This document shows, in pieces, positions 27,017 to 37,051 of a DNA stretch of 63,920 bases (the stretch's first letter is position 1; each line of letters begins with the position of its first letter). The DNA lies in assembly GCA_020445785.1 (NCBI GenBank), contig JAGRFZ010000010.1:1-63920 (forward strand), in the 5' to 3' direction. The notes beneath the pieces were generated by a model. That model was not told the DNA's origin and ran no database searches. It was given only the letters and a program-made list of their open reading frames with translations. The position numbers and the translations under genes were made by a program. Source of the stretch: Rhodocyclaceae bacterium. Its GTDB lineage: Bacteria; Pseudomonadota; Gammaproteobacteria; Burkholderiales; Rhodocyclaceae.

Positions 27017-27850
27017 TCAGCCCTGCAGCAATTGAAGCACGTTCTGCGGAATGGCGTTGGCCTGGGCGAGCATGGCGGTACCGGCCTGCTGCAGGATCTG
27101 GGCTCGTGTGAGCGCCGCGGTTTCCGCCGCGAAGTCCGCGTCCAGGATGCGGCTGGCAGCGGCCGTCTGGTTCTCGCGTGACACCTGCAGCACCGAGATC
27201 ACCCCTTCGAAGCGAACCTGAGCCGCGCCGTAGGTGGCGCGATCGGTATTGACCTTGTCGATGGCCGAGTCGATCGTCAGGATCGCCGCGGACGCACCGC
27301 TGGCGGTCGTCACCGTGGTGGTTGCCGATGCCGTTGCGGCCGAGACGGCGCCGCCGGAGACGGCTGTGGTGGTGACGGTCACCGTCTCGCCCGCGTTGGC
27401 GCCGATCTGGAAGGTCTGGGTGCCTGCGTCCGAGTCGAGGATCTTCAGGCCATTAAACGTGGTCTGTTGCCCGATGCGGTCGATTTCGTTCTGGAGCTGG
27501 TCGAACTCCGATTCCAGCGCCAGGCGGTCGCTCGAGGAGTTGGTCGCGTTGGCCGACTGGATCGCCAGGTCGCGCATCCGCAGCAAATGATCCTTGATCT
27601 GCCCCAGTGCGCCTTCCGCGGTCTGGGCCAGGGAGATGCCGTCGTTGGCATTGCGGATCGCGACGGTCATGCCGCGCGCCTGGGCGTTCATGCGGGTGGC
27701 GATCGCCAGGCCGGCAGCGTCGTCCTTGGCGCTGTTCACCCGAAGACCCGAGGACAGGCGCTGCAGGGCCGTCGACAAGGAATTCTGTGACGCGTTCAAG
27801 TTGCGCTGGGCATTCAGCGAGGGGATGTTGGTGTTGATGATCGAAGCCAT
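27017..27850 (-). CDS. fliC: Flagellin
   Basis: The product is 277 aa, a short flagellin. The N-terminal D0/D1 region ([18 protein letters not shown], then [20 protein letters not shown]) and the C-terminal D1/D0 region ([21 protein letters not shown] to [10 protein letters not shown]) are both complete. The middle is a small Ala/Thr/Val-rich segment (residues about 165-205) with almost no D2/D3 domain. The start was set at ATG 27850, which has AAGGAG 8 nt upstream; the frame continues upstream without coding character. A sigma-54 promoter lies 82 nt upstream. The gene stands alone, with no fliD, flaG or fliS beside it. Confidence 0.97.
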
Positions 27851-27932
27851 GATGTCACTCCTTTTCGGATTCCCGTCCTGTGCAGCATCGGCCGCCAACC
27901 CCCTCACGAGGCACGGCTGCCGATCACGGCAT

Positions 27933-27948
27933 TGCAACTAGGATGCCA
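27933..27948 (-). promoter_or_regulatory. Sigma-54 promoter of flagellin gene
   Basis: On the - strand the sequence is TGGCATCCTAGTTGCA. GG and GC are exactly 10 nt apart, and it fits TGGCAC-N5-TTGCA with one or two mismatches. It is 82 nt upstream of the flagellin ATG. No sigma-28 element was found in this region. Confidence 0.85.
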
Positions 27949-28187: not shown

Positions 28188-30572
28188 TCAGTACCCGGCG
28201 CCACACCATTGCGCGAGCGCCGCCCAGTTGGCGACGACCCGGGGCAGGTAGGGCAGTGGCCGGAAGCGATCGACGAGGGCATAGAATGGCAGGCGCATCA
28301 GCATCAGCTGCTCGAGCGCGAGCGCGAAGCCATGTCGCCATTGGTGTGCGTCGATGTCCCTGCCCGCCGCGATCTCCAGCCCGCGCCGGTGGCGTTCCAG
28401 CAGCGTGTTCGCCCAATCGGCGGCCTCGCCGCAGGGCAGAACGAAGCACAGCAACTCGGCGAGATCCCTCTGCGGAGGACCGATGTCCGCCAGCTCCCAA
28501 TCGAAGGCACAGGCCAGCGGGCCGTCGCGCGTCTTACGGAAGGCCAGGTTGCGGGGATTGAAATCGTTGTGGATCAGGGTGTGGTCGAGTTCTTGCCACT
28601 GGACCCACCACCGGGCGATGGCGGCGGCCGGGCGGCGTTGCCGTGACGCCTGGCCGATCCCTCCCCAGGGCGAGAACCGGCTCGACGAGAATTCGGCCAG
28701 ATGCGCCCACAATGGCTCGGCGGCAGTGGGCGTGCGTGCAGTGTCGCTGCGGGCCAGCCAATCGTGTTCCGACAAAGCCTCGGCCTTGCCGAGCCAGGGA
28801 GCATGGATCGATGCCAAGGCGTCGACGGCGGCATGCAGATGCGCGAGCCGCCATTCGCCGACGCGATTGGCCGAATCCATCAATTCGACGTTCTCGAGAT
28901 ACTCCGTCAGCAGCGTGCGCGGCGGCGCCGAGGACCCGTGCCAGTCGAAATGGGCCGGCTTGTGGCGATCGATGCGCGGGTTCGCCAAGCGGTGAATGCC
29001 GATCTCGCGGTCGCCGCCACCCTGGTGGGGAAGGTGGGCGCTGTAGCGCTCGAGTACCCCGCCGAGCCCGGGTGTTGCGGTTTCGGCAAGGCGGACCGCC
29101 ACGCGCGTGAGGCTGACGTCGTCGGCGCGCCGCTTGACGACCACGGGGATCTGCTGCTTGTCGCTGCGGCGAATCAGCGTACACCGCCACAGGCCGGTCG
29201 CGCCACCGTCCACCTGAGCGCTCAAGTCGGTGATCAAGGCGTCGCCGCCAGGCAAGCGACGGAGCGCTCCGGGTGCGAGGCGATAGGCCCGATTCACTGC
29301 CATGGCACAAGCCGTCCGCAGTGCGGTTGCGCTCGCTTCGGCCTCACCCCGAACCGGTGAGGTGCGGGTCGGGCGGGGCAGAAAATGCTCCGCCTGGAAG
29401 AACGCCAGGTAGCGTGCAAGCAGGGCGCCGTCCAGCGCGGGAATCTGCAGACCCAGCGCGTCGAGGCGCGCGACCGAGGCATCCGATCGGATCCGGGCGG
29501 ATGCCTTGCCGAGGTAGAACTCGGGCAGACTCTGGCCGCCTATTGCCGTCGGGCGGGCGAGCAGGAAAGGCTTGAGCACGTGAAGCGACGGCGCGGACCG
29601 TGCCGCTTCGGTCGCGACGAACTCCTGCCAGTCGCGGAACCGAATCAGGTGCTGCGGGTAGCCTGCCAGCGCGAGCCAGAGAACCAGTTCGCGCCAGTGG
29701 CGCGGGCAGGGGTGGCGCAAGTGCATCACTTCGAGCCCGTCGCCCTGCTCGGTGATCAGCAGTCGCACGGCGCGAGCCACCGTATCGACGGGCACGCAGT
29801 CGACGGCCCAATCGACATCTGCGCTCACCCCGGTCGCAGCGCTGGCCTGCAGCAGGCGCGACAACAGGTCGGTCGGATTGCTCGTGCCATCGACGCTGTC
29901 GCCGGAAATCAGCGCGGGCCGCAGGATGCTCGCGGACAAGCCGCGGGCAGCCGCTTCGCGCACGAGCGACTCCGCCACGCATTTGGCCTGGGCGTAGCCC
30001 AGGGGAATCTCGTCCAGGCGCGGCAGCAAATCGTCCCGCTCGTCCACATCTTCCGCGCCGGGCAGGTAACAGACGGCGAGCGTACTGACGAAGAGCAGTC
30101 GCTTTGCGCGTCCGGCACAGGCCAGCGAAACCGCATTTCGGCTGCCTTCGACGTGGCTGGCTGCGAGTCGCTTCCAGGACTTGAGCCAACTCACTTCGGC
30201 GGCGCAGTGAATCACCCCGTCGCAGGTCGTGGCGATGGCGTGGTACTCGCCCCGTGCCAGACCGAATCGCGGCTCGGCCAGCGATCCAGCCAGCGCCTGC
30301 CAGCGCGGCCTGAATGCCGCGAGCGGCCGCCCGGTCTGTGCCAGAGCGTCCTCGATCCGGGTTTCTGCATGGTGTCGGTCAGTGGCTCGCACCAGGCACA
30401 CCACGTCCCATTCGGTGCTGGCCAGCAACTCGGCCAGGACGAAGCGGCCGACGAAGCCGGTGCCGCCGGTGACGAAGACGCGGCGGATGAAGGATGGTGG
30501 CGGCGATGCCGGGCGAATCGAAGGATCGAGCCGGGCCTCGATCGGAAGCGGGTGTCGGGCTGCCGTGTCCAT
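28188..30572 (-). CDS. Thioester-reductase-type SDR fused to APH-type kinase
   Basis: The product is 794 aa. The N-terminal half is an extended SDR of the thioester reductase / fatty acyl reductase kind: GGTGFVG (36-42), FVSTLAV (161-167), and the catalytic pair Y193/K197 in YAQAK. A linker of about 50 residues follows. The C-terminal half is an aminoglycoside phosphotransferase/choline-kinase fold: an upstream nucleotide-binding part (VVVKRR), the catalytic HNDFNPRN (H668, D670, N675) and metal-binding DWE (D691). Both active sites look intact. It is the last gene of the four-gene operon, 7 nt after the UbiA-like gene. It probably reduces an acyl or keto group and phosphorylates the product or a partner; the substrate is unknown. 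Confidence 0.8.
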   Translation of the reverse strand: MDTAARHPLPIEARLDPSIRPASPPPSFIRRVFVTGGTGFVGRFVLAELLASTEWDVVCLVRATDRHHAETRIEDALAQTGRPLAAFRPRWQALAGSLAEPRFGLARGEYHAIATTCDGVIHCAAEVSWLKSWKRLAASHVEGSRNAVSLACAGRAKRLLFVSTLAVCYLPGAEDVDERDDLLPRLDEIPLGYAQAKCVAESLVREAAARGLSASILRPALISGDSVDGTSNPTDLLSRLLQASAATGVSADVDWAVDCVPVDTVARAVRLLITEQGDGLEVMHLRHPCPRHWRELVLWLALAGYPQHLIRFRDWQEFVATEAARSAPSLHVLKPFLLARPTAIGGQSLPEFYLGKASARIRSDASVARLDALGLQIPALDGALLARYLAFFQAEHFLPRPTRTSPVRGEAEASATALRTACAMAVNRAYRLAPGALRRLPGGDALITDLSAQVDGGATGLWRCTLIRRSDKQQIPVVVKRRADDVSLTRVAVRLAETATPGLGGVLERYSAHLPHQGGGDREIGIHRLANPRIDRHKPAHFDWHGSSAPPRTLLTEYLENVELMDSANRVGEWRLAHLHAAVDALASIHAPWLGKAEALSEHDWLARSDTARTPTAAEPLWAHLAEFSSSRFSPWGGIGQASRQRRPAAAIARWWVQWQELDHTLIHNDFNPRNLAFRKTRDGPLACAFDWELADIGPPQRDLAELLCFVLPCGEAADWANTLLERHRRGLEIAAGRDIDAHQWRHGFALALEQLMLMRLPFYALVDRFRPLPYLPRVVANWAALAQWCGAGY

Positions 30573-30579
30573 CAGCGAT

Positions 30580-31191
30580 TCACAGCCCGAGGGTCGCCGG
30601 CAATGTCGCCGCCAGCAACAGGGCAGCCAGCATCATGACGGCCTGCGATGCAGGGTGGGACCGCAGTTCGCGATCGGTCGCAAATTCGTACAGACAGAGG
30701 ATCAGCAGCACCGCCACCGCATTCGGCCCCCAGTCGTCGATGTCCTGCCCAGGCGAAACCAGTCCGACGAAGGCGGGGTATTTCAGCAGCACCGCCTGCG
30801 TTCGCCAGAAGCGCGGAATGAGCGGTCGAAGCCGATCGGCGAGCCAGGTCATCGCACCCAATAGCAACAGGTAGCCGAGCAGTGCGGTGGCGTCTCCTTG
30901 CAGCCAGGCGAGGGCCGCGATGGGGGCGGTAAGGGCAAGCGCCAGCCGTCGCAGGTCGAACGCCGAGGATTGGTCGACCATGATGCGTTCGGGATGCACC
31001 GCGGCGTCATGGCCGCGGTCGGCATAGTCGTCGAGCACCCGGAACTGCACGATCAGCGACAACAGCAAGAATGCCTGCAGGGTCCGGTCCGAACCGGCTT
31101 CGGCCGCGAACACCAGCAATGCCCAGAGGATGAACACGCGGGGCAGCAGGATGCGCCGGCGAAAGTATGCGGAAAGGCATTCAGTCGACAA
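30580..31191 (-). CDS. Short UbiA-like membrane protein
   Basis: The product is about 203 aa with five to six hydrophobic segments. After TM2 it has LDDYADRGHD, matching the first Asp-rich NDxxDxxxD motif of UbiA prenyltransferases, which binds the diphosphate of the prenyl donor through Mg2+. A possible counterpart of the second Asp motif is YEFATDRE near residue 160, but it is weak. UbiA enzymes are usually 270-310 aa, so this is short. Start: TTG 31191 with GAGG 6 nt upstream, overlapping the stop of the preceding gene by 11 nt; no ATG or GTG is in frame near it. A prenyl or related transferase acting on a membrane lipid is a hypothesis. Confidence 0.6.
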   Translation of the reverse strand: MSTECLSAYFRRRILLPRVFILWALLVFAAEAGSDRTLQAFLLLSLIVQFRVLDDYADRGHDAAVHPERIMVDQSSAFDLRRLALALTAPIAALAWLQGDATALLGYLLLLGAMTWLADRLRPLIPRFWRTQAVLLKYPAFVGLVSPGQDIDDWGPNAVAVLLILCLYEFATDRELRSHPASQAVMMLAALLLAATLPATLGL

Positions 31192-33835
31192 GGCGTACCT
31201 CGCCGCGGTCCCCGTCGACCGAAAGGTGCTGGCCGCTGCGAATCTGCGTGGTCGCGTCGCGCACCCCCACCACGGCTGGAATGCCGAATTCGCGGGCAAT
31301 GATGGCGCCGTGCGACAGCATGCCGCCGCGCTCGACGACGAGCCCTTTTGCAAGGAAGAAGACGCTCGCCCAGCCCGGATCCGTCTGGCGCGTGACGACG
31401 ATCGATGGTTCGGCCATGCTGCCACCTTCGGTTGCATCCCCCAAGACGGCTGCTGGACCATCGACTCGGCCGCCGCAGGCGCCGATGCCGGTGAGGGCAC
31501 GGGACGGCGCCGCGCCGGGCGGCGCTTTCGTCGGACCCGCCTGGGCGCCGAGGTACTCCCCGACGGGCACCGTAAAGCGGTCGGGTGGGTGCATCGCGGC
31601 GAAGGCGCGGTGGGCGGGTTCGCGCAGTGCCACCAGCCCCGCGAGCCCGTCGGGCTGCAGGGCAAGGCCCGCGAGATGGCTTTCCAGCTCGTCGAGACGC
31701 AGGAACAGGACATGCTCGGCGACGTCGATGCGCCCCTCGCGGTGCAGGCGGCGGCCGCATGCCATCAGCACATGCCGCAGCGTCACATACAGGCGCGCCT
31801 GCTTCATCCGCGCCCGTTCCCGCAGGCGAATCGATGCCTGCGTGGCCGAAAGCAGCCGGTCGAATATGCGGCGCGCGACCCACACCGGCAGCCGCAGCCC
31901 GCGGCCGCTATCGAGCCGTGCCCGAATCTGCGCAGTCGCCTCTTCGCGTTCGATCGCCTGTCGAGCCAGCCGCTGATCGGGAGAGGCGCCCCGCAGTTGC
32001 ACGTAGGACCTCAGCAATGCCAGCGTCGGCAGCGGATCTTCTTCGGGGCTGGGCTGGCTGAGCATCAGTTCGCCAGAACTGCGGAAACCCCAGCGGGTCA
32101 GGTAGCTGCGAAAATCTTCGTCGAAGCGCTTGAAGCGGTGCGTCTGGCGCAGCGTGGGCAGCACCGCCTCCGGCGGGCCGTCGAACAGCGCGGTGAGTTC
32201 CGGATCGTCGAGAATCTGACGCGACAGTGCCCACAGCTTTTGAACCGGCACTTGGCTGGCCAGGTCCGGCAAGCCGACCAACAGGTTGTTGTGGGGCCGC
32301 AGGCGGGCATCCGGCGGCAGTGCGGACTGGAGGAAGTGCCCGAGGCTGCCATAGCAGACCATCGCTGCCGTATCGGCGAGCGCCGCGTCGTTCCATTGGC
32401 GCATCCGGATTTCGGTGAATCCTCGCAGAGCCGTAAGCAACTGCGACCGATCGAGTCGGTCGATGGTTTCGGGTCGGTACCGATCGCAGTATTCGTCGAT
32501 ACGCCGTTCGAAGCGCGCAATGCGGCGCGTCACGCCCAGATACTGTCTGGCGACGCACGTTGCGACGCGCACCCATTCCAGCGCCCGCCCGAGATATCCG
32601 GGATCGGGAATCGAATTCACCGGCTGCGGAAAGTCGCTGGCGCCGATGAATTCGTTGAAATAGCGCGCCAACTCACGCCCTCCCGGCGCCAACCGGATCA
32701 GGGCGTGAATATTGCTCAGGTTGTAGTAGAGACGGCCGGCGTGCACCCCGACGACGCCGCCGAGCGCCGGCTCCATCGCCTCGACGCGACGGCGTGAAAT
32801 CCCGAAACCCAGCCCGAGATTTCGAAAATAGGCACTGTAGGCCGGGCCGACGATGGAATGGAGCATCGGCGTGATCGGCTCGGGATAGTTTTCCGCGATG
32901 TTGGCGTTGCTGAAACGCTGGCTCACCGCCGCCCGATCCGGCTGTTGCACGGTCGTGATCGGGCGCGCCTGCAGCATCCAGATCTTGCCGCATCGATCGA
33001 TCGCCCACTCGATGTCGAGCGCTCGACCGAACTGCGCCTCCAACTGCAGCGCTTGGTCGAGCAGCGTGCGCAGCGAAGCCTCGGAGATTTTGCCGCCGTC
33101 CTCGCCCGCTTCGCTCGACCGCAGGCTGCGCGTGTCTCGATCGAAGGTGGCGCGTGCCGGATCGAGTGCCCCTGAAACCAGGCCCTCGCCGAGTCCCTGA
33201 CAATATTCGATCAGGCACTGGGAGGGATTCACCGGAGATTGCGTGAACAGCACGCCCGAACGGACGGCATCGATCTGGCGCTGAATGATGACAGCGGCCG
33301 ACGCAAGTTCGATTCCCGTCCGTCGTTGGTAGGCCAGACTGCGCGCAGACCAAAGGGACCCCCACACTTGACGAACAGCCGCCTCGACCGCATCGATACC
33401 GACGACGCCGAGGACGGAGTCGAGCTGACCGGCAAACGAGTGCTCGCTGCCGTCTTCGCCGACGGCGGAACTGCGAACGGCAAATTTCCCGCCGTCGGCC
33501 GTGATCGACGCGAGTTCTTGCCGCAGCGCGGGGTCGAGTGGCTGTGCCTGGAGCGCCCCGATGAGCGCGGCGCGTGCCGCATTGCAATCTCCCTCGTCCG
33601 GGCCGCCGTGCCCGATTCGTAGGCGGTCGAGTAGTGGCTCGAGGCTCGCTCGGCGGATTGCGTCGTGCATGGCCGCCGGGCTCACCACCCAGCCCACGGG
33701 CACGGGCAGGTCGATTGCCAGGATGCGTGCCAGGCCGGCCGCCTTGCCGCCATGTCGCTCGGCGTCGTGTGCGTCGGCCAGCGGGGTCAGCCACTGGGCG
33801 TCCTCCGTCGGGAATTCGTGGCCCCGGCTGTTCAT
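31181..33835 (-). CDS. PEP-synthase / rifampicin-phosphotransferase-like enzyme
   Basis: The product is 884 aa. Residues 1-320 form an ATP-grasp PEP/pyruvate-binding domain (KAAGLARILAIDLPVPVGWV, FAVRSSAVGEDG, and the closing WAIDRCGKIWMLQARPIT). A large middle region of about 480 residues is of unknown fold. The C-terminal PEP-utiliser swivelling domain carries the phospho-histidine motif MLSHGAIIAREFGIPAVVG (His about 842). The pyruvate-binding barrel of true PEP synthase is missing, so this is closer in layout to rifampicin phosphotransferase, which moves the beta-phosphate of ATP to a hydroxyl. The start ATG overlaps the stop of the CarS-like gene (ATGA). It probably phosphorylates a small or lipid substrate of this operon. 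Confidence 0.85.
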   Translation of the reverse strand: MNSRGHEFPTEDAQWLTPLADAHDAERHGGKAAGLARILAIDLPVPVGWVVSPAAMHDAIRRASLEPLLDRLRIGHGGPDEGDCNAARAALIGALQAQPLDPALRQELASITADGGKFAVRSSAVGEDGSEHSFAGQLDSVLGVVGIDAVEAAVRQVWGSLWSARSLAYQRRTGIELASAAVIIQRQIDAVRSGVLFTQSPVNPSQCLIEYCQGLGEGLVSGALDPARATFDRDTRSLRSSEAGEDGGKISEASLRTLLDQALQLEAQFGRALDIEWAIDRCGKIWMLQARPITTVQQPDRAAVSQRFSNANIAENYPEPITPMLHSIVGPAYSAYFRNLGLGFGISRRRVEAMEPALGGVVGVHAGRLYYNLSNIHALIRLAPGGRELARYFNEFIGASDFPQPVNSIPDPGYLGRALEWVRVATCVARQYLGVTRRIARFERRIDEYCDRYRPETIDRLDRSQLLTALRGFTEIRMRQWNDAALADTAAMVCYGSLGHFLQSALPPDARLRPHNNLLVGLPDLASQVPVQKLWALSRQILDDPELTALFDGPPEAVLPTLRQTHRFKRFDEDFRSYLTRWGFRSSGELMLSQPSPEEDPLPTLALLRSYVQLRGASPDQRLARQAIEREEATAQIRARLDSGRGLRLPVWVARRIFDRLLSATQASIRLRERARMKQARLYVTLRHVLMACGRRLHREGRIDVAEHVLFLRLDELESHLAGLALQPDGLAGLVALREPAHRAFAAMHPPDRFTVPVGEYLGAQAGPTKAPPGAAPSRALTGIGACGGRVDGPAAVLGDATEGGSMAEPSIVVTRQTDPGWASVFFLAKGLVVERGGMLSHGAIIAREFGIPAVVGVRDATTQIRSGQHLSVDGDRGEVRLVD

Positions 33836-34431
33836 GTGGGGCGCATCTTGAGCCGCAGGCGATACAGCCAGAAGCTGAACAACAGGTGGAACAGCGTGCC
33901 CAGCGAGAGGGCCCAGACCCAGGTCATGACGGCCAGGGGAAGCATCCAGTCGATGGCCAGCAAGGCGCCGATCGTGGAATCGAGGCGATCCAGCGCGAAG
34001 CACGCCCAGCGAAGCCGGCGGCCACCGGCTGTTGCCCCCGGTGCAATCCCGAGGCGGCGTTTGAGAAAGGAATTGGGAAGTTCCGCGAGCATGAAGGCGA
34101 GTCCGGCAACGGCACCCACCGTCGCCATCTGGGCCGGCGGCAACGGCCAGAGCCCGCTCGCGAGCCAAGCTGGCGTCGCATCCCTGACGAGCGCGGCGAG
34201 GGCGAATGCGAGGGCAGTGGCCAGTGGCATTGCCATCAGCCCGCGCCAGGTCTTGTTGTCACCGAAGATGCGATGGCCGCCGACTCGTGCGCCTCGGTCG
34301 ATCGGTAACGCAAAGGGTTTCGACAGTCGCGAACCGAGCCATACCACATGGGCGACGCCTGCCAGAGAAAGGCAGGCCACGAGCCAGATGGCGCAAGGCA
34401 GGGCGGTCGGTGCGATCGCGCCCTCAGGCAT
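33832..34431 (-). CDS. CDP-archaeol synthase (CarS) family CTP transferase
   Basis: The product is 199 aa with about five hydrophobic segments. Two motifs match the CarS/DUF46 family well: PIDRGARVGGHRIFGDNKTW near residue 45, and LPNSFLKRRLGIAPG followed by LDRLDSTIGALL (about 118-155). In archaea CarS transfers CMP from CTP to a phosphorylated prenyl-ether lipid; in bacteria related proteins exist, but their substrates are mostly unknown. It is the first gene of a coupled operon with a phosphotransferase-like enzyme, a UbiA-like protein and a reductase-kinase fusion, which together suggest activation of an unusual lipid. The start ATG follows closely spaced GGAGG sites. Confidence 0.82.
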   Translation of the reverse strand: MPEGAIAPTALPCAIWLVACLSLAGVAHVVWLGSRLSKPFALPIDRGARVGGHRIFGDNKTWRGLMAMPLATALAFALAALVRDATPAWLASGLWPLPPAQMATVGAVAGLAFMLAELPNSFLKRRLGIAPGATAGGRRLRWACFALDRLDSTIGALLAIDWMLPLAVMTWVWALSLGTLFHLLFSFWLYRLRLKMRPT

Positions 34432-34736: not shown

Positions 34737-35216
34737 TCAGACGCTTCCGAAGCGTCTTCCGGAGAGATGTGGCTTGGATTGTCCGTCTGGGCCGTAGGTG
34801 GCGCCGGGTTGGGCCGCTGCCGCCATCAGAACCGTCAAGGCCTGCTGGTTGTTCTGCATGCGCTCGCCGATCAGGCGGCCATTGATCTGGTTTTGTTCGC
34901 TGGCCTGCCGCGCGAGCCGCACGACCTGATCCCAGTCGGTGAGCGCAGTGGCGTGCTCGGACAAGGCCTGCCGGATGGCCGCTGCGTCCAGTGGTTGGCG
35001 AGAACCGGCAAACAGCCGGGCGCGCTCGTCGGACAGATACTGGAGGCGCCGATACATCCGCGTCTTTTGCTCGGCCATCTCCAACAAGGCATCGGTTTCT
35101 CCGTCCAGCAGCAGGGACTGTTCGCGCTCCAGCAGCGAGACGAAATCGCTCAGCATCGACGCTTCCTCATGGAGGAGCGTCGCCAGCATCTGCCGGTCCG
35201 GCGCGCGCGTCGTCAA
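34737..35216 (-). CDS. flgN: Flagellar chaperone FlgN
   Basis: The product is about 159 aa and all helical. The pattern LLHEEASMLSDFVSLLEREQSLLL, then ALLEMAEQKTRMYRRLQYL and a C-terminal ending in short basic residues fits FlgN, the export chaperone for the hook-filament junction proteins FlgK and FlgL. Start: TTG 35216 lies 1 nt after the flgM stop with AAGG 6 nt upstream; ATG 35189 is an alternative. It is co-transcribed with flgM from the sigma-28 site. Confidence 0.85.
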   Translation of the reverse strand: MTTRAPDRQMLATLLHEEASMLSDFVSLLEREQSLLLDGETDALLEMAEQKTRMYRRLQYLSDERARLFAGSRQPLDAAAIRQALSEHATALTDWDQVVRLARQASEQNQINGRLIGERMQNNQQALTVLMAAAAQPGATYGPDGQSKPHLSGRRFGSV

Positions 35217-35217
35217 C

Positions 35218-35532
35218 TCAGACCTTGTTCGGCTGGGCGGCAAGCATTTGGCGGACGCTGTCGACCAGTCCGTCGGCGACCTTGTTGGCGTCTACCTTGA
35301 AGCGGCCTTCTGAGATCGCCTGCTTGATCTCATCCACCCGCACCTGATTGACGACCGGCGTCGATTGAATGGCCTGCTCGGCCTTTTGCATGCCGGACGA
35401 CAGGGACGAAAGTTCGACCCGATCACCCGCCGGCGCGGCCGACGGCGGGGCGCCGGTGGTCGGCACCGCCTTCGTTCGGTTGTCGCCGGTCTCCAGGTTT
35501 CCGACCGGCTTGATGGAATTGTCGATTTTCAC
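35218..35532 (-). CDS. flgM: Anti-sigma-28 factor FlgM
   Basis: The product is 104 aa. It starts MKIDNSIKPVG and ends with the FlgM sigma-binding helix region: VRVDEIKQAISEGRFKVDANKVADGLV. It binds and inhibits FliA (sigma-28) until it is exported through the finished hook-basal body. Start codon GTG 35532 with GAGG upstream. A near-consensus sigma-28 promoter lies 32 nt upstream, giving the usual feedback loop. Confidence 0.95.
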   Translation of the reverse strand: MKIDNSIKPVGNLETGDNRTKAVPTTGAPPSAAPAGDRVELSSLSSGMQKAEQAIQSTPVVNQVRVDEIKQAISEGRFKVDANKVADGLVDSVRQMLAAQPNKV

Positions 35533-35563
35533 AGCGAGCTACCTCAGTAGGAATCTGACTGAC

Positions 35564-35591
35564 GTTACGGCCAGACCTGGGAGCAACTTTA
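35564..35591 (-). promoter_or_regulatory. Sigma-28 (FliA) promoter of flgM-flgN
   Basis: On the - strand TAAAGTTG and GCCGTAAC are separated by 12 nt. This is close to TAAAGTTT-N11-GCCGATAA, with one base missing in the -10 element. It lies 32 nt upstream of the flgM start. Confidence 0.72.
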
Positions 35592-35687
35592 GACCCATTT
35601 GGCCCTGCAATAGGGGCGTGCACCGACGAAATCGTTAAAAAATTTGACCCTTGTTTCAATTTTCTTGACGAGCGGGGTGGTCTGGCC

Positions 35688-36383
35688 TTAGGGGCCGACT
35701 ACGACGGTGCCGTCCAGACGTGCCCTTCCCGACAGCACCTTTCCGCTTGGCAGACGCACTCGTACGACCTGCCCCTCGCCGGCATCGTTCAAAGCGCGTC
35801 CCTGGTTTGCCACCTGGAAGCCCCTGCCTTCGGTGACCACCCGAACCGTTTCTCCGCGCCCAATCACCGGAGGCACGCGCAGCATCTCGCGCGTGAGCGG
35901 GCGTCCTGCGGCGACCGCGATGCGCGCCGGGTGGCCCACAGCCTGGGTCGCGTCGACGAGGGCGCCGGCACCGTCTTCGGTGAGGTCGCCATGCCGACGG
36001 GTGAGGTCTTCCGGGGCAACCAGCTGGCCGGGTCTGAGGTCTCGGGCGAGCACCAGATAATCACCGAATACCTGGACCCTGGCGCTGACGTAGATCGTCC
36101 AGCGCACTGGCGCCTGGCAGCGCACGCCGACCGAGGTGCGGCCCCATGCGCGGCGCCCACGGGGCATGAATGCGTCCAGTCGCTCGCAGGCCGGCAGGTG
36201 GTTGTCGGCATCGATGGGGGCGACCTCGACCCGGACGTCCGCGCTGGACCCCGCAGCCCGTTCGAACAGGAGTCGCTCGACCGCGTCGCGCACCGGAGCC
36301 ACCGGCTGGCGTGCCGAGACAGAGGACGACAGCAGCACGGCGAAGGAGGTCAGGGACAACAGGGCGGCTCCGATGCGGCTCAT
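35688..36383 (-). CDS. flgA: Flagellar P-ring assembly chaperone FlgA
   Basis: The product is 231 aa. A signal peptide (IGAALLSLTSFAVLLSSSVSA) leads to a periplasmic protein with a C-terminal SAF domain: LVLARDLRPGQLVAPEDLT, then GHPARIAVAAGRPLTREML and VRVVTEGRGFQV. FlgA helps FlgI form the P-ring. ATG 36383 was taken as the start since it immediately precedes the signal peptide. It diverges from flgB across a 263-bp region, the normal arrangement. Confidence 0.93.
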   Translation of the reverse strand: MSRIGAALLSLTSFAVLLSSSVSARQPVAPVRDAVERLLFERAAGSSADVRVEVAPIDADNHLPACERLDAFMPRGRRAWGRTSVGVRCQAPVRWTIYVSARVQVFGDYLVLARDLRPGQLVAPEDLTRRHGDLTEDGAGALVDATQAVGHPARIAVAAGRPLTREMLRVPPVIGRGETVRVVTEGRGFQVANQGRALNDAGEGQVVRVRLPSGKVLSGRARLDGTVVVGP

Positions 36384-36562
36384 GGCGTCATTGAACCACG
36401 GCGGGCGATTGGACGTGGGCGCCGTGGCCCGATCGCGGCGCCGGCAATTGCTGCCGATCGCTGCCGGCCGAGCTTGCCGGCTGCCGCCTGCAGTGGTGCG
36501 AATTGGCCGGTATTTGGTCGGTTTCTCCGACGATACAAGGGACTTTGCCACGCTACGCTGGC

Positions 36563-36578
36563 TGGCATGGAAGGTGCG
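36563..36578 (+). promoter_or_regulatory. Sigma-54 promoter of flgB operon
   Basis: TGGCATGGAAGGTGCG has GG and GC 10 nt apart. The -24 box is near perfect and the -12 box has one mismatch (GTGC for TTGC). It lies 69 nt before the flgB ATG, in the flgA-flgB divergent region. Confidence 0.7.
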
Positions 36579-36646
36579 AAGGTGAGCGTGCCGGGAGTGG
36601 CCGACTCGATTCGAAGCGCACCGGCAGGACAGACCAGGAGCCAGCG

Positions 36647-37051
36647 ATGAAAGCCAGACTCGAACAGGAACTCGCATTCCACCAAACCGCGCTCAACCTG
36701 CGTGCCCACCGGCAGCAGCTTCTCGCCTCCAACATCGCGAACGCGGATACGCCCAATTTCAAGGCGAAGGACATCGATTTCCGTTCGGCGCTGGCCGGGG
36801 CCCTCGGCAATCGGCTGGGCCCGCTGGCGTTGAGCCGCACTGCCGCCGGTCACTTGCCGGCCGCCGCCGACCCGGCATTGGACCGCTTCGCACGCTTCCG
36901 CACCGAAATTCAACCAAACGTCGACGGCAATACGGTCGACATGGATGTCGAGCGCGCCGCCTTTGCGGAGAACGCCTTGCACTATGAAGCCAGCGTGACC
37001 TTCATCAACGGTCTGCTGACCGGAATGCAGCGGGCGATCGTCGGCCAGTAA
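36647..37051 (+). CDS. flgB: Flagellar proximal rod protein FlgB
   Basis: The product is 134 aa. It shows the rod-protein N-terminus LRAHRQQLLASNIANADTPN and the C-terminal helix FAENALHYEASVTFINGLL. It forms the proximal rod with FlgC, FlgF and FliE. Start ATG 36647 has AGGAG 6 nt upstream; the frame runs back further without coding character. First gene of the flgBCDEFGHIJ run. Confidence 0.95.
   Translation: MKARLEQELAFHQTALNLRAHRQQLLASNIANADTPNFKAKDIDFRSALAGALGNRLGPLALSRTAAGHLPAAADPALDRFARFRTEIQPNVDGNTVDMDVERAAFAENALHYEASVTFINGLLTGMQRAIVGQ

Follow-up and report, generated by a model that had tools for sequence, protein, structure and literature searches.

What would four tightly packed genes on one strand of a Rhodocyclaceae contig make together, and do they occur as a set in other bacteria? 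The window analyzed here is the whole stretch of 63,920 nucleotides (GCA_020445785.1, contig JAGRFZ010000010.1; contig C202 of a 4.58-Mb genome with 231 contigs and 89% completeness), and the four genes lie at 28188-34431. A note made earlier from the letters alone, hereafter the original prediction, had described them as one coupled unit, which the translations bear out, as all four lie on the minus strand:

33832-34431, minus strand: CarS-like membrane CTP transferase (199 aa), first gene of the operon
31181-33835, minus strand: PEPS, an RPH/PigC-like dikinase (884 aa), with a 4-nt ATGA overlap with the CarS-like gene
30580-31191, minus strand: short UbiA-like membrane protein (203 aa), TTG start, 11-nt overlap with PEPS
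28188-30572, minus strand: fusion of a thioester reductase (TR) and an APH-type kinase (794 aa), after a 7-nt gap from the UbiA-like gene
about 29376-30482, minus strand: TR domain, N-terminal in the fusion protein
about 28215-29246, minus strand: APH-type kinase domain, C-terminal in the fusion protein

We see an even chance that this is a compact version of an operon widespread in bacteria, which would use a fatty alcohol to build a CTP-activated polar lipid beside the normal phospholipids, most likely an alkyl ether glycerophospholipid.

Recurrence of the gene set

The original prediction hinged on the genes travelling together in other genomes, and the set does recur across phyla. When named genomes were scanned with the CarS alignment, 430 stretches were confirmed, and the best 80 by similarity to the window's CarS, i.e., close relatives only, were compared. 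These loci are not fully independent (L036, L057, and L108 correspond to genomes G004, G095, and G387, L047 corresponds to G556, and L040 and L044 come from one metagenome-assembled genome), and many contigs are short, 50 of the 80 loci having flanks of 3.5 kb or more on both sides. PEPS was the most frequent neighbour, being present near CarS in 73 of the 80 loci (71 on the same strand, 50 within 300 nt; median distance 66 nt), followed by UbiA in 59; among the 50 loci with longer flanks the counts were 47 and 44, respectively. The other neighbours were a desaturase (43 of 80), a methyltransferase (36), PlsC (35), CDP-alcohol phosphotransferase (29), APH kinase (28), TR (26), acyl-AMP ligase (25), a GNAT-like protein (20), phosphatidylserine (PS) decarboxylase (13), a DgkA-type kinase (12), an HMGR-like domain (6), and an AT3 domain (3). 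A search for solved relatives of the desaturase gave none of note. As a negative control, we compared 16 loci, from 13 distinct places, whose CarS-like genes are more distant and 14 of which are just 1.9 to 3.4 kb long, and neither PEPS, UbiA, TR, APH, and HMGR nor the desaturase and the operon methyltransferase was found there, while a CDP-alcohol transferase and PlsC were present in one locus each. The neighbourhood counts together with this negative control point to an association beyond chance.

Over 54 loci, CarS, PEPS, and UbiA gave concordant distance matrices (Mantel r 0.895, 0.823, and 0.849; highest permuted value 0.206), a concordance to which shared species history contributes. Eight named phyla are represented in the PEPS tree, for the most part in clusters, and the window groups at 100/100 with Sideroxydans, Massilia glaciei, and a gammaproteobacterium. 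Since these three nearest relatives have fuller operons with both the desaturase and the methyltransferase, the window copy looks reduced. CarS genes of this type are rare: matches at 1e-10 were obtained in 5 of 399 sampled genomes of the order (the window's own included), and one of five congeners has such a gene; in a sample of the class, 17 of 369 genomes matched at 1e-5 (own included), just three others below 1e-15.

Protein families and the nature of the chain

The original prediction had assigned the genes to CarS-, phosphoenolpyruvate (PEP)-transferase-, UbiA-, and reductase/kinase-like families, and all four assignments hold on the basis of profile scores, for UbiA by way of the family profile. 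The CarS-like protein scored 39.6 bits with PF01864 (cut-off 22) and remained below the cut-off of the CDP-archaeol synthase equivalog NF003114 (61.1 vs. 148 bits). When its alignment A3, in which the KTWRG, ELPNS..KR, and D..DS motifs are invariant across the 6 rows, was used as a profile against solved chains, the sole match up to E 0.1 was CDP-archaeol synthase (5guf, E 7.5e-7). A separate CdsA-type gene is present in the window genome, which we count in favour of the preferred reading.

The reductase domain of the fusion protein scored above the cut-off of the thioester reductase model TIGR01746 (231.3 vs. 213.35 bits) and reached 175 bits with NAD_binding_4 (PF07993), and the kinase domain exceeded that of APH (PF01636; 42.3 vs. 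23.2 bits). In the kinase alignment A5, composed of the window and 27 of 28 listed relatives, K60, H248-x-D250....N255, and D271 are invariant in all 28 rows. Its profile had its best solved match in ACAD11 (E 4.1e-7), whose kinase domain phosphorylates 4-hydroxyacyl-CoA, as stated in passages of PMC11342911. In all 28 named loci in which it was found, the kinase is fused to a reductase, which is TR in 22, as in the window, and HMGR-like in six. The parts of PMC11948995 that deal with the fatty acyl-CoA reductase FcrA describe three differences from HMG-CoA (3-hydroxy-3-methylglutaryl-CoA) reductase, namely a glutamate for Ser684, the absence of the pocket lysine, and a bulky residue for Leu862. 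Judged by motif spacing rather than structure, these signature positions are common to all six HMGR-like domains: a glutamate stands seven residues before the lysine of DKK, no lysine is found 28-34 residues before the aspartate of GQD, and a phenylalanine stands four residues before the catalytic histidine. The domains considered here are fused to an APH kinase, whereas the main text of PMC11948995 is without the words kinase or phosphotransferase. Two of them (L029, 6715-9237; L104, 1024-3798) would be annotated as HMG-CoA reductase and look like a fatty acyl-CoA reductase fused to a kinase. As two unrelated reductases are combined with the same kinase, a fatty alcohol is suggested as the shared intermediate, and the shared step would probably run from a fatty acyl thioester via the fatty alcohol to an alkyl phosphate. 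In the fuller copies TR adjoins an acyl-AMP ligase and an acyl carrier protein (ACP) domain.

The UbiA-like protein of the window had no Pfam hit of its own, PF01040 included, and this model matched 26 of the 55 aligned members (the window and 54 of 56 listed relatives) at E values up to 1e-3. The family profile reaches UbiA proteins, with archaeal digeranylgeranylglyceryl phosphate (DGGGP) synthase as best solved match, and the first Asp-rich motif is present (D54 and D62 invariant, D58 in at least 90% of the 55 rows).

Both an isoprenoid and an alkyl chain had been considered in the original prediction. In archaea, ether lipids are made by geranylgeranylglyceryl phosphate (GGGP) synthase, DGGGP synthase, CarS, and archaetidylserine synthase and decarboxylase. 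By closest solved chains, the UbiA-like protein resembles the second and the CarS-like protein the third of these enzymes, and related copies also have a head-group transferase and a decarboxylase. If the operon made an archaeal-type isoprenoid ether lipid, an ordinary polyprenyl diphosphate would supply the chain transferred by UbiA, and CarS would form a CDP-archaeol-like lipid; archaetidylserine synthase indeed gives the CDP-alcohol transferases of L093 and L029 slightly higher scores than PssA does. These scores are, however, far below the model's cut-off, and GGGP synthase (PF01884) was above its cut-off in none of seven cluster genomes, the one match in G095 being sub-threshold. In place of an isoprenoid supply there are acyl-thioester reductases and a kinase, and the linked HMGR-like domains bear the fatty acyl-CoA reductase signature. 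We therefore regard an isoprenoid product as improbable; the FcrA signature, TR beside acyl-AMP ligase and ACP, and the missing GGGP synthase favour the alkyl half of the earlier proposal and disfavour the isoprenoid half.

PEPS is composed of an ATP-grasp domain, a central substrate domain, and a swivelling His domain (PPDK_N, 170.1 bits; PEP-utilizers, 86.6 bits), and the Pfam profile search reported no pyruvate-binding C-terminal domain for the window copy. Its closest solved chains are 5fbs, 5hv2, and 5hv1, which we take to be the rifampin phosphotransferase RPH. The catalytic-His motif is kept in all 66 copies that extend to the His domain. ATP-grasp and His domains flank a central domain in RPH and in PigC/RedH as well, but PEPS is below all equivalog cut-offs, including those for PEP synthase (TIGR01418; 222.5 vs. 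739.75 bits) and rifampin phosphotransferase (NF041857; 258.1 vs. 999 bits), and its genomic context is that of lipid synthesis. Some copies appear broken: in Roseburia inulinivorans (L092, 12982-15100) PEPS is split into three open reading frames, either by a genuine break or by a draft error, and the G849 copy (C1:560372-562963) is reported with two in-frame stops (a break or an assembly error), while that of L093 is one intact frame.

Instead of a membrane lipid, the product could also be a small molecule that is secreted or serves in signalling; its chemistry would be prodiginine-like, and PEPS would act as a condensing enzyme in the way of PigC. PEPS reached 289 bits with the RedH model and 283 with that of PigC, and in L031 (14031-16916, minus strand) CarS and two PEPS genes share their run with a PigE-like aminotransferase (AT3); AT3 domains are also near CarS in L097, L101, and L112, the first of which has PEPS too. 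Both scores are nevertheless far below the cut-offs (PigC 1300, RedH 1350), CDP-alcohol transferase, PS decarboxylase, and PlsC are phospholipid enzymes, and no pyrrole-pathway gene was noticed in the gene lists, although no search was aimed at one. Such a product is thus quite unlikely. The loci with AT3 domains possibly hold a fatty-amine version of the pathway.

A candidate pathway and its head groups

For the alkyl polar lipid that we prefer, the following route can be proposed. In brief, the TR domain (elsewhere the FcrA-type HMGR homologue) would reduce a fatty acyl thioester (acyl-ACP or acyl-CoA), loaded in fuller copies by the acyl-AMP ligase and ACP, to a fatty alcohol (step 1), which the fused kinase would phosphorylate (step 2). 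PEPS might, speculatively, complete the activation of the chain by transferring a second phosphate or a pyrophosphoryl group (step 3), after which, in an equally speculative step, the UbiA-like enzyme would, in the manner of archaeal DGGGP synthase, ether-link the chain to glycerol phosphate or a comparable acceptor (step 4). A second chain could be added by an acyltransferase, i.e., PlsC or perhaps the GNAT-like protein in fuller copies and a housekeeping enzyme in the window (step 5, likewise speculative). CarS would then make the CDP-lipid (step 6), and CDP-alcohol phosphotransferase would add the head group, followed in some copies by PS decarboxylase or phosphonate supply (step 7). While families, active-site residues, linkage, and the reductase swap are read directly from the sequences, steps 1, 2, 6, and 7 are what we infer from the families. 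More tentatively still, we propose that bacteria of at least eight phyla, gut Lachnospiraceae included, may have an additional route to ether or alkyl phospholipids, in which a TR/FcrA-kinase fusion feeds a new RPH-like dikinase, a reduced UbiA transfers the alkyl chain to glycerol phosphate, and CarS makes the CDP-lipid, so that archaeal-style assembly would operate on bacterial fatty chains.

The earlier idea of a pathway that makes and activates an unusual lipid gains support of a comparative kind from the neighbouring acyl-AMP ligase, PlsC, CDP-alcohol phosphotransferase, PS decarboxylase, and phosphonate genes. Variable head-group genes around a constant core are the pattern expected of a polar-lipid pathway. 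For instance, CarS is fused to CDP-alcohol phosphotransferase in L104, L106, and L108, and twelve copies from Lachnospiraceae/Clostridia mostly have, in this order, a DgkA kinase, CarS, CDP-alcohol transferase, PS decarboxylase, UbiA, PEPS, and the GNAT-like protein (L100, L102, and L103 are without transferase and decarboxylase, and L094 and L110 without a GNAT-like match). Genes for PEP mutase and phosphonopyruvate decarboxylase adjoin the cluster in L079 (16551-19556) and L091 (10877-12900) and in no other locus searched, with just the L091 decarboxylase exceeding its curated cut-off; these genes suggest that the planctomycete and the oligoflexale concerned have phosphonate head groups. The GNAT-like protein (L093, 15076-16146, and relatives), of about 360 aa and with no Pfam hit in the copy tested, is perhaps the acyltransferase where PlsC is missing.

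A glycerol-free route has to be weighed as well, in which the kinase makes an alkyl phosphate, CarS converts it to CDP-alkyl, the CDP-alcohol transferase yields alkyl-phospho-head-group lipids, and PEPS and UbiA merely decorate. In L120 (7192-10878; genome G538, from the same order as the window) TR-APH, CarS, and a CDP-alcohol transferase stand in a row, and a search of the genome gave no UbiA or PEPS match. Six genomes were searched with both models, and UbiA and PEPS were both present as neighbours in G849 and G851 and both absent in G538, G381, G850, and G852, as if they were a separate module. By this gene content, there tend to be two modules, one of UbiA and PEPS and one of reductase-kinase, CarS, and transferase, and the absence of the former from some genomes leaves room for a CDP-alkyl route with UbiA and PEPS optional. 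That the two always co-occur is ruled out by L097, where PEPS adjoins CarS and the genome has no UbiA match, contrary to a strict module. In addition, PlsC occurs in 35 of the 80 loci, and the two copies tested scored best (below the cut-off) with 1-acylglycerol-3-phosphate acyltransferase, which argues for a glycerol backbone, and PEPS is the commonest neighbour of CarS. We consider the glycerol-free route unlikely, though worth keeping in view.

Several observations weigh against the alkyl ether glycerophospholipid preferred here. The UbiA-like protein of the window is short, and in the region of the second Asp-rich motif just E169 is nearly invariant across the 55 rows, so the motif itself was not found. 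Its predicted fold is of the prenyltransferase type, but fold scores fail to separate UbiA from soluble prenyl synthases. UbiA enzymes use allylic diphosphates, and to our knowledge a saturated alkyl donor would be unprecedented for this reaction. With regard to PEPS, its resemblance to PigC/RedH, an RSS motif in just 49 of 58 N-termini, and the seven of 80 loci without it (L056, L069, L096, L098, L099, L101, and L112) count on the same side; in the five of these loci whose genomes were searched, PEPS was elsewhere in three and absent in two. L120 and L097 imply that the UbiA and PEPS steps are not always needed, and it was a cardiolipin synthase model that gave the CDP-alcohol transferase of L120 its best score. 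No TR, HMGR, or AT3 match was obtained at the 12 loci with a DgkA-type kinase, and in the window genome the search found no match to the operon desaturase and just weak ones to the methyltransferase.

Known ether-lipid systems and the genomic surroundings

The Elb ether-lipid genes of Myxococcus xanthus include ElbD, for which passages of PMC9131029 list FAR-like, ACS, ACP, and AGPAT domains. The fuller copies share with it acyl-AMP ligase, ACP, an NAD_binding_4-type reductase, and the PlsC acyltransferase, but here the enzymes are separate proteins, while the passages give the elb operon partners of the HAD and NAD-epimerase types together with one protein whose function is unknown, and make no mention of CarS, PEPS, UbiA, the kinase, or CDP-alcohol transferase. 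None of the relatives modelled has FAR-ACS-ACP-AGPAT in one frame, and the window protein consists of reductase and kinase only. PlsA/Ger generates bacterial ether lipids by ester-to-ether conversion of an ester already on glycerol, i.e., by different chemistry and, in the sections of PMC13274423 on this system, with PlsA-like proteins, not UbiA or CarS. A full-text search of open-licence literature retrieved no description of such a cluster, and the CarS/PEPS/UbiA/reductase-kinase set is not described in the relevant sections of the reports on sponge ElbD clusters (PMC9426513) and on the lipocone survey (PMC12419801). Bacterial synthesis of alkyl or ether polar lipids is known, and the core of CarS, PEPS, and UbiA is undescribed. 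If the proposal is true, many phyla would make a phospholipid class that present lipid maps miss from genomes, and ether or alkyl lipids whose origin in sediments and guts is uncertain could be approached through genes. UbiA and CarS steps of the archaeal type would run on fatty chains, which bears on the lipid divide, and functions would be suggested for genes of bacteria to which standard models give the names PEP synthase, CDP-archaeol synthase, or HMG-CoA reductase.

The window operon is bounded by a flagellin-like gene (27017-27937) and by flgN/flgM/flgA-like genes (34737-36677), all flagellar names being our reading of translations. Control of the operon by the flagellar system was considered and dropped, as the sigma-28-like upstream site scores 9 of 13, a value reached by 122 of 400 random stretches. 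Flagellar queries had no match at any other locus compared apart from four betaproteobacterial genomes in which flagellar gene clusters contain or adjoin the operon, namely the window, Massilia glaciei (L042, 7368-20548), Burkholderiales bin.9 (L010/L057; L010, 23-6067), and L118 (1-5525). The operon's places there differ, being on the fliC/flgN side, on the flgL/fliR side, or after a flhA-flhF-fliA run.

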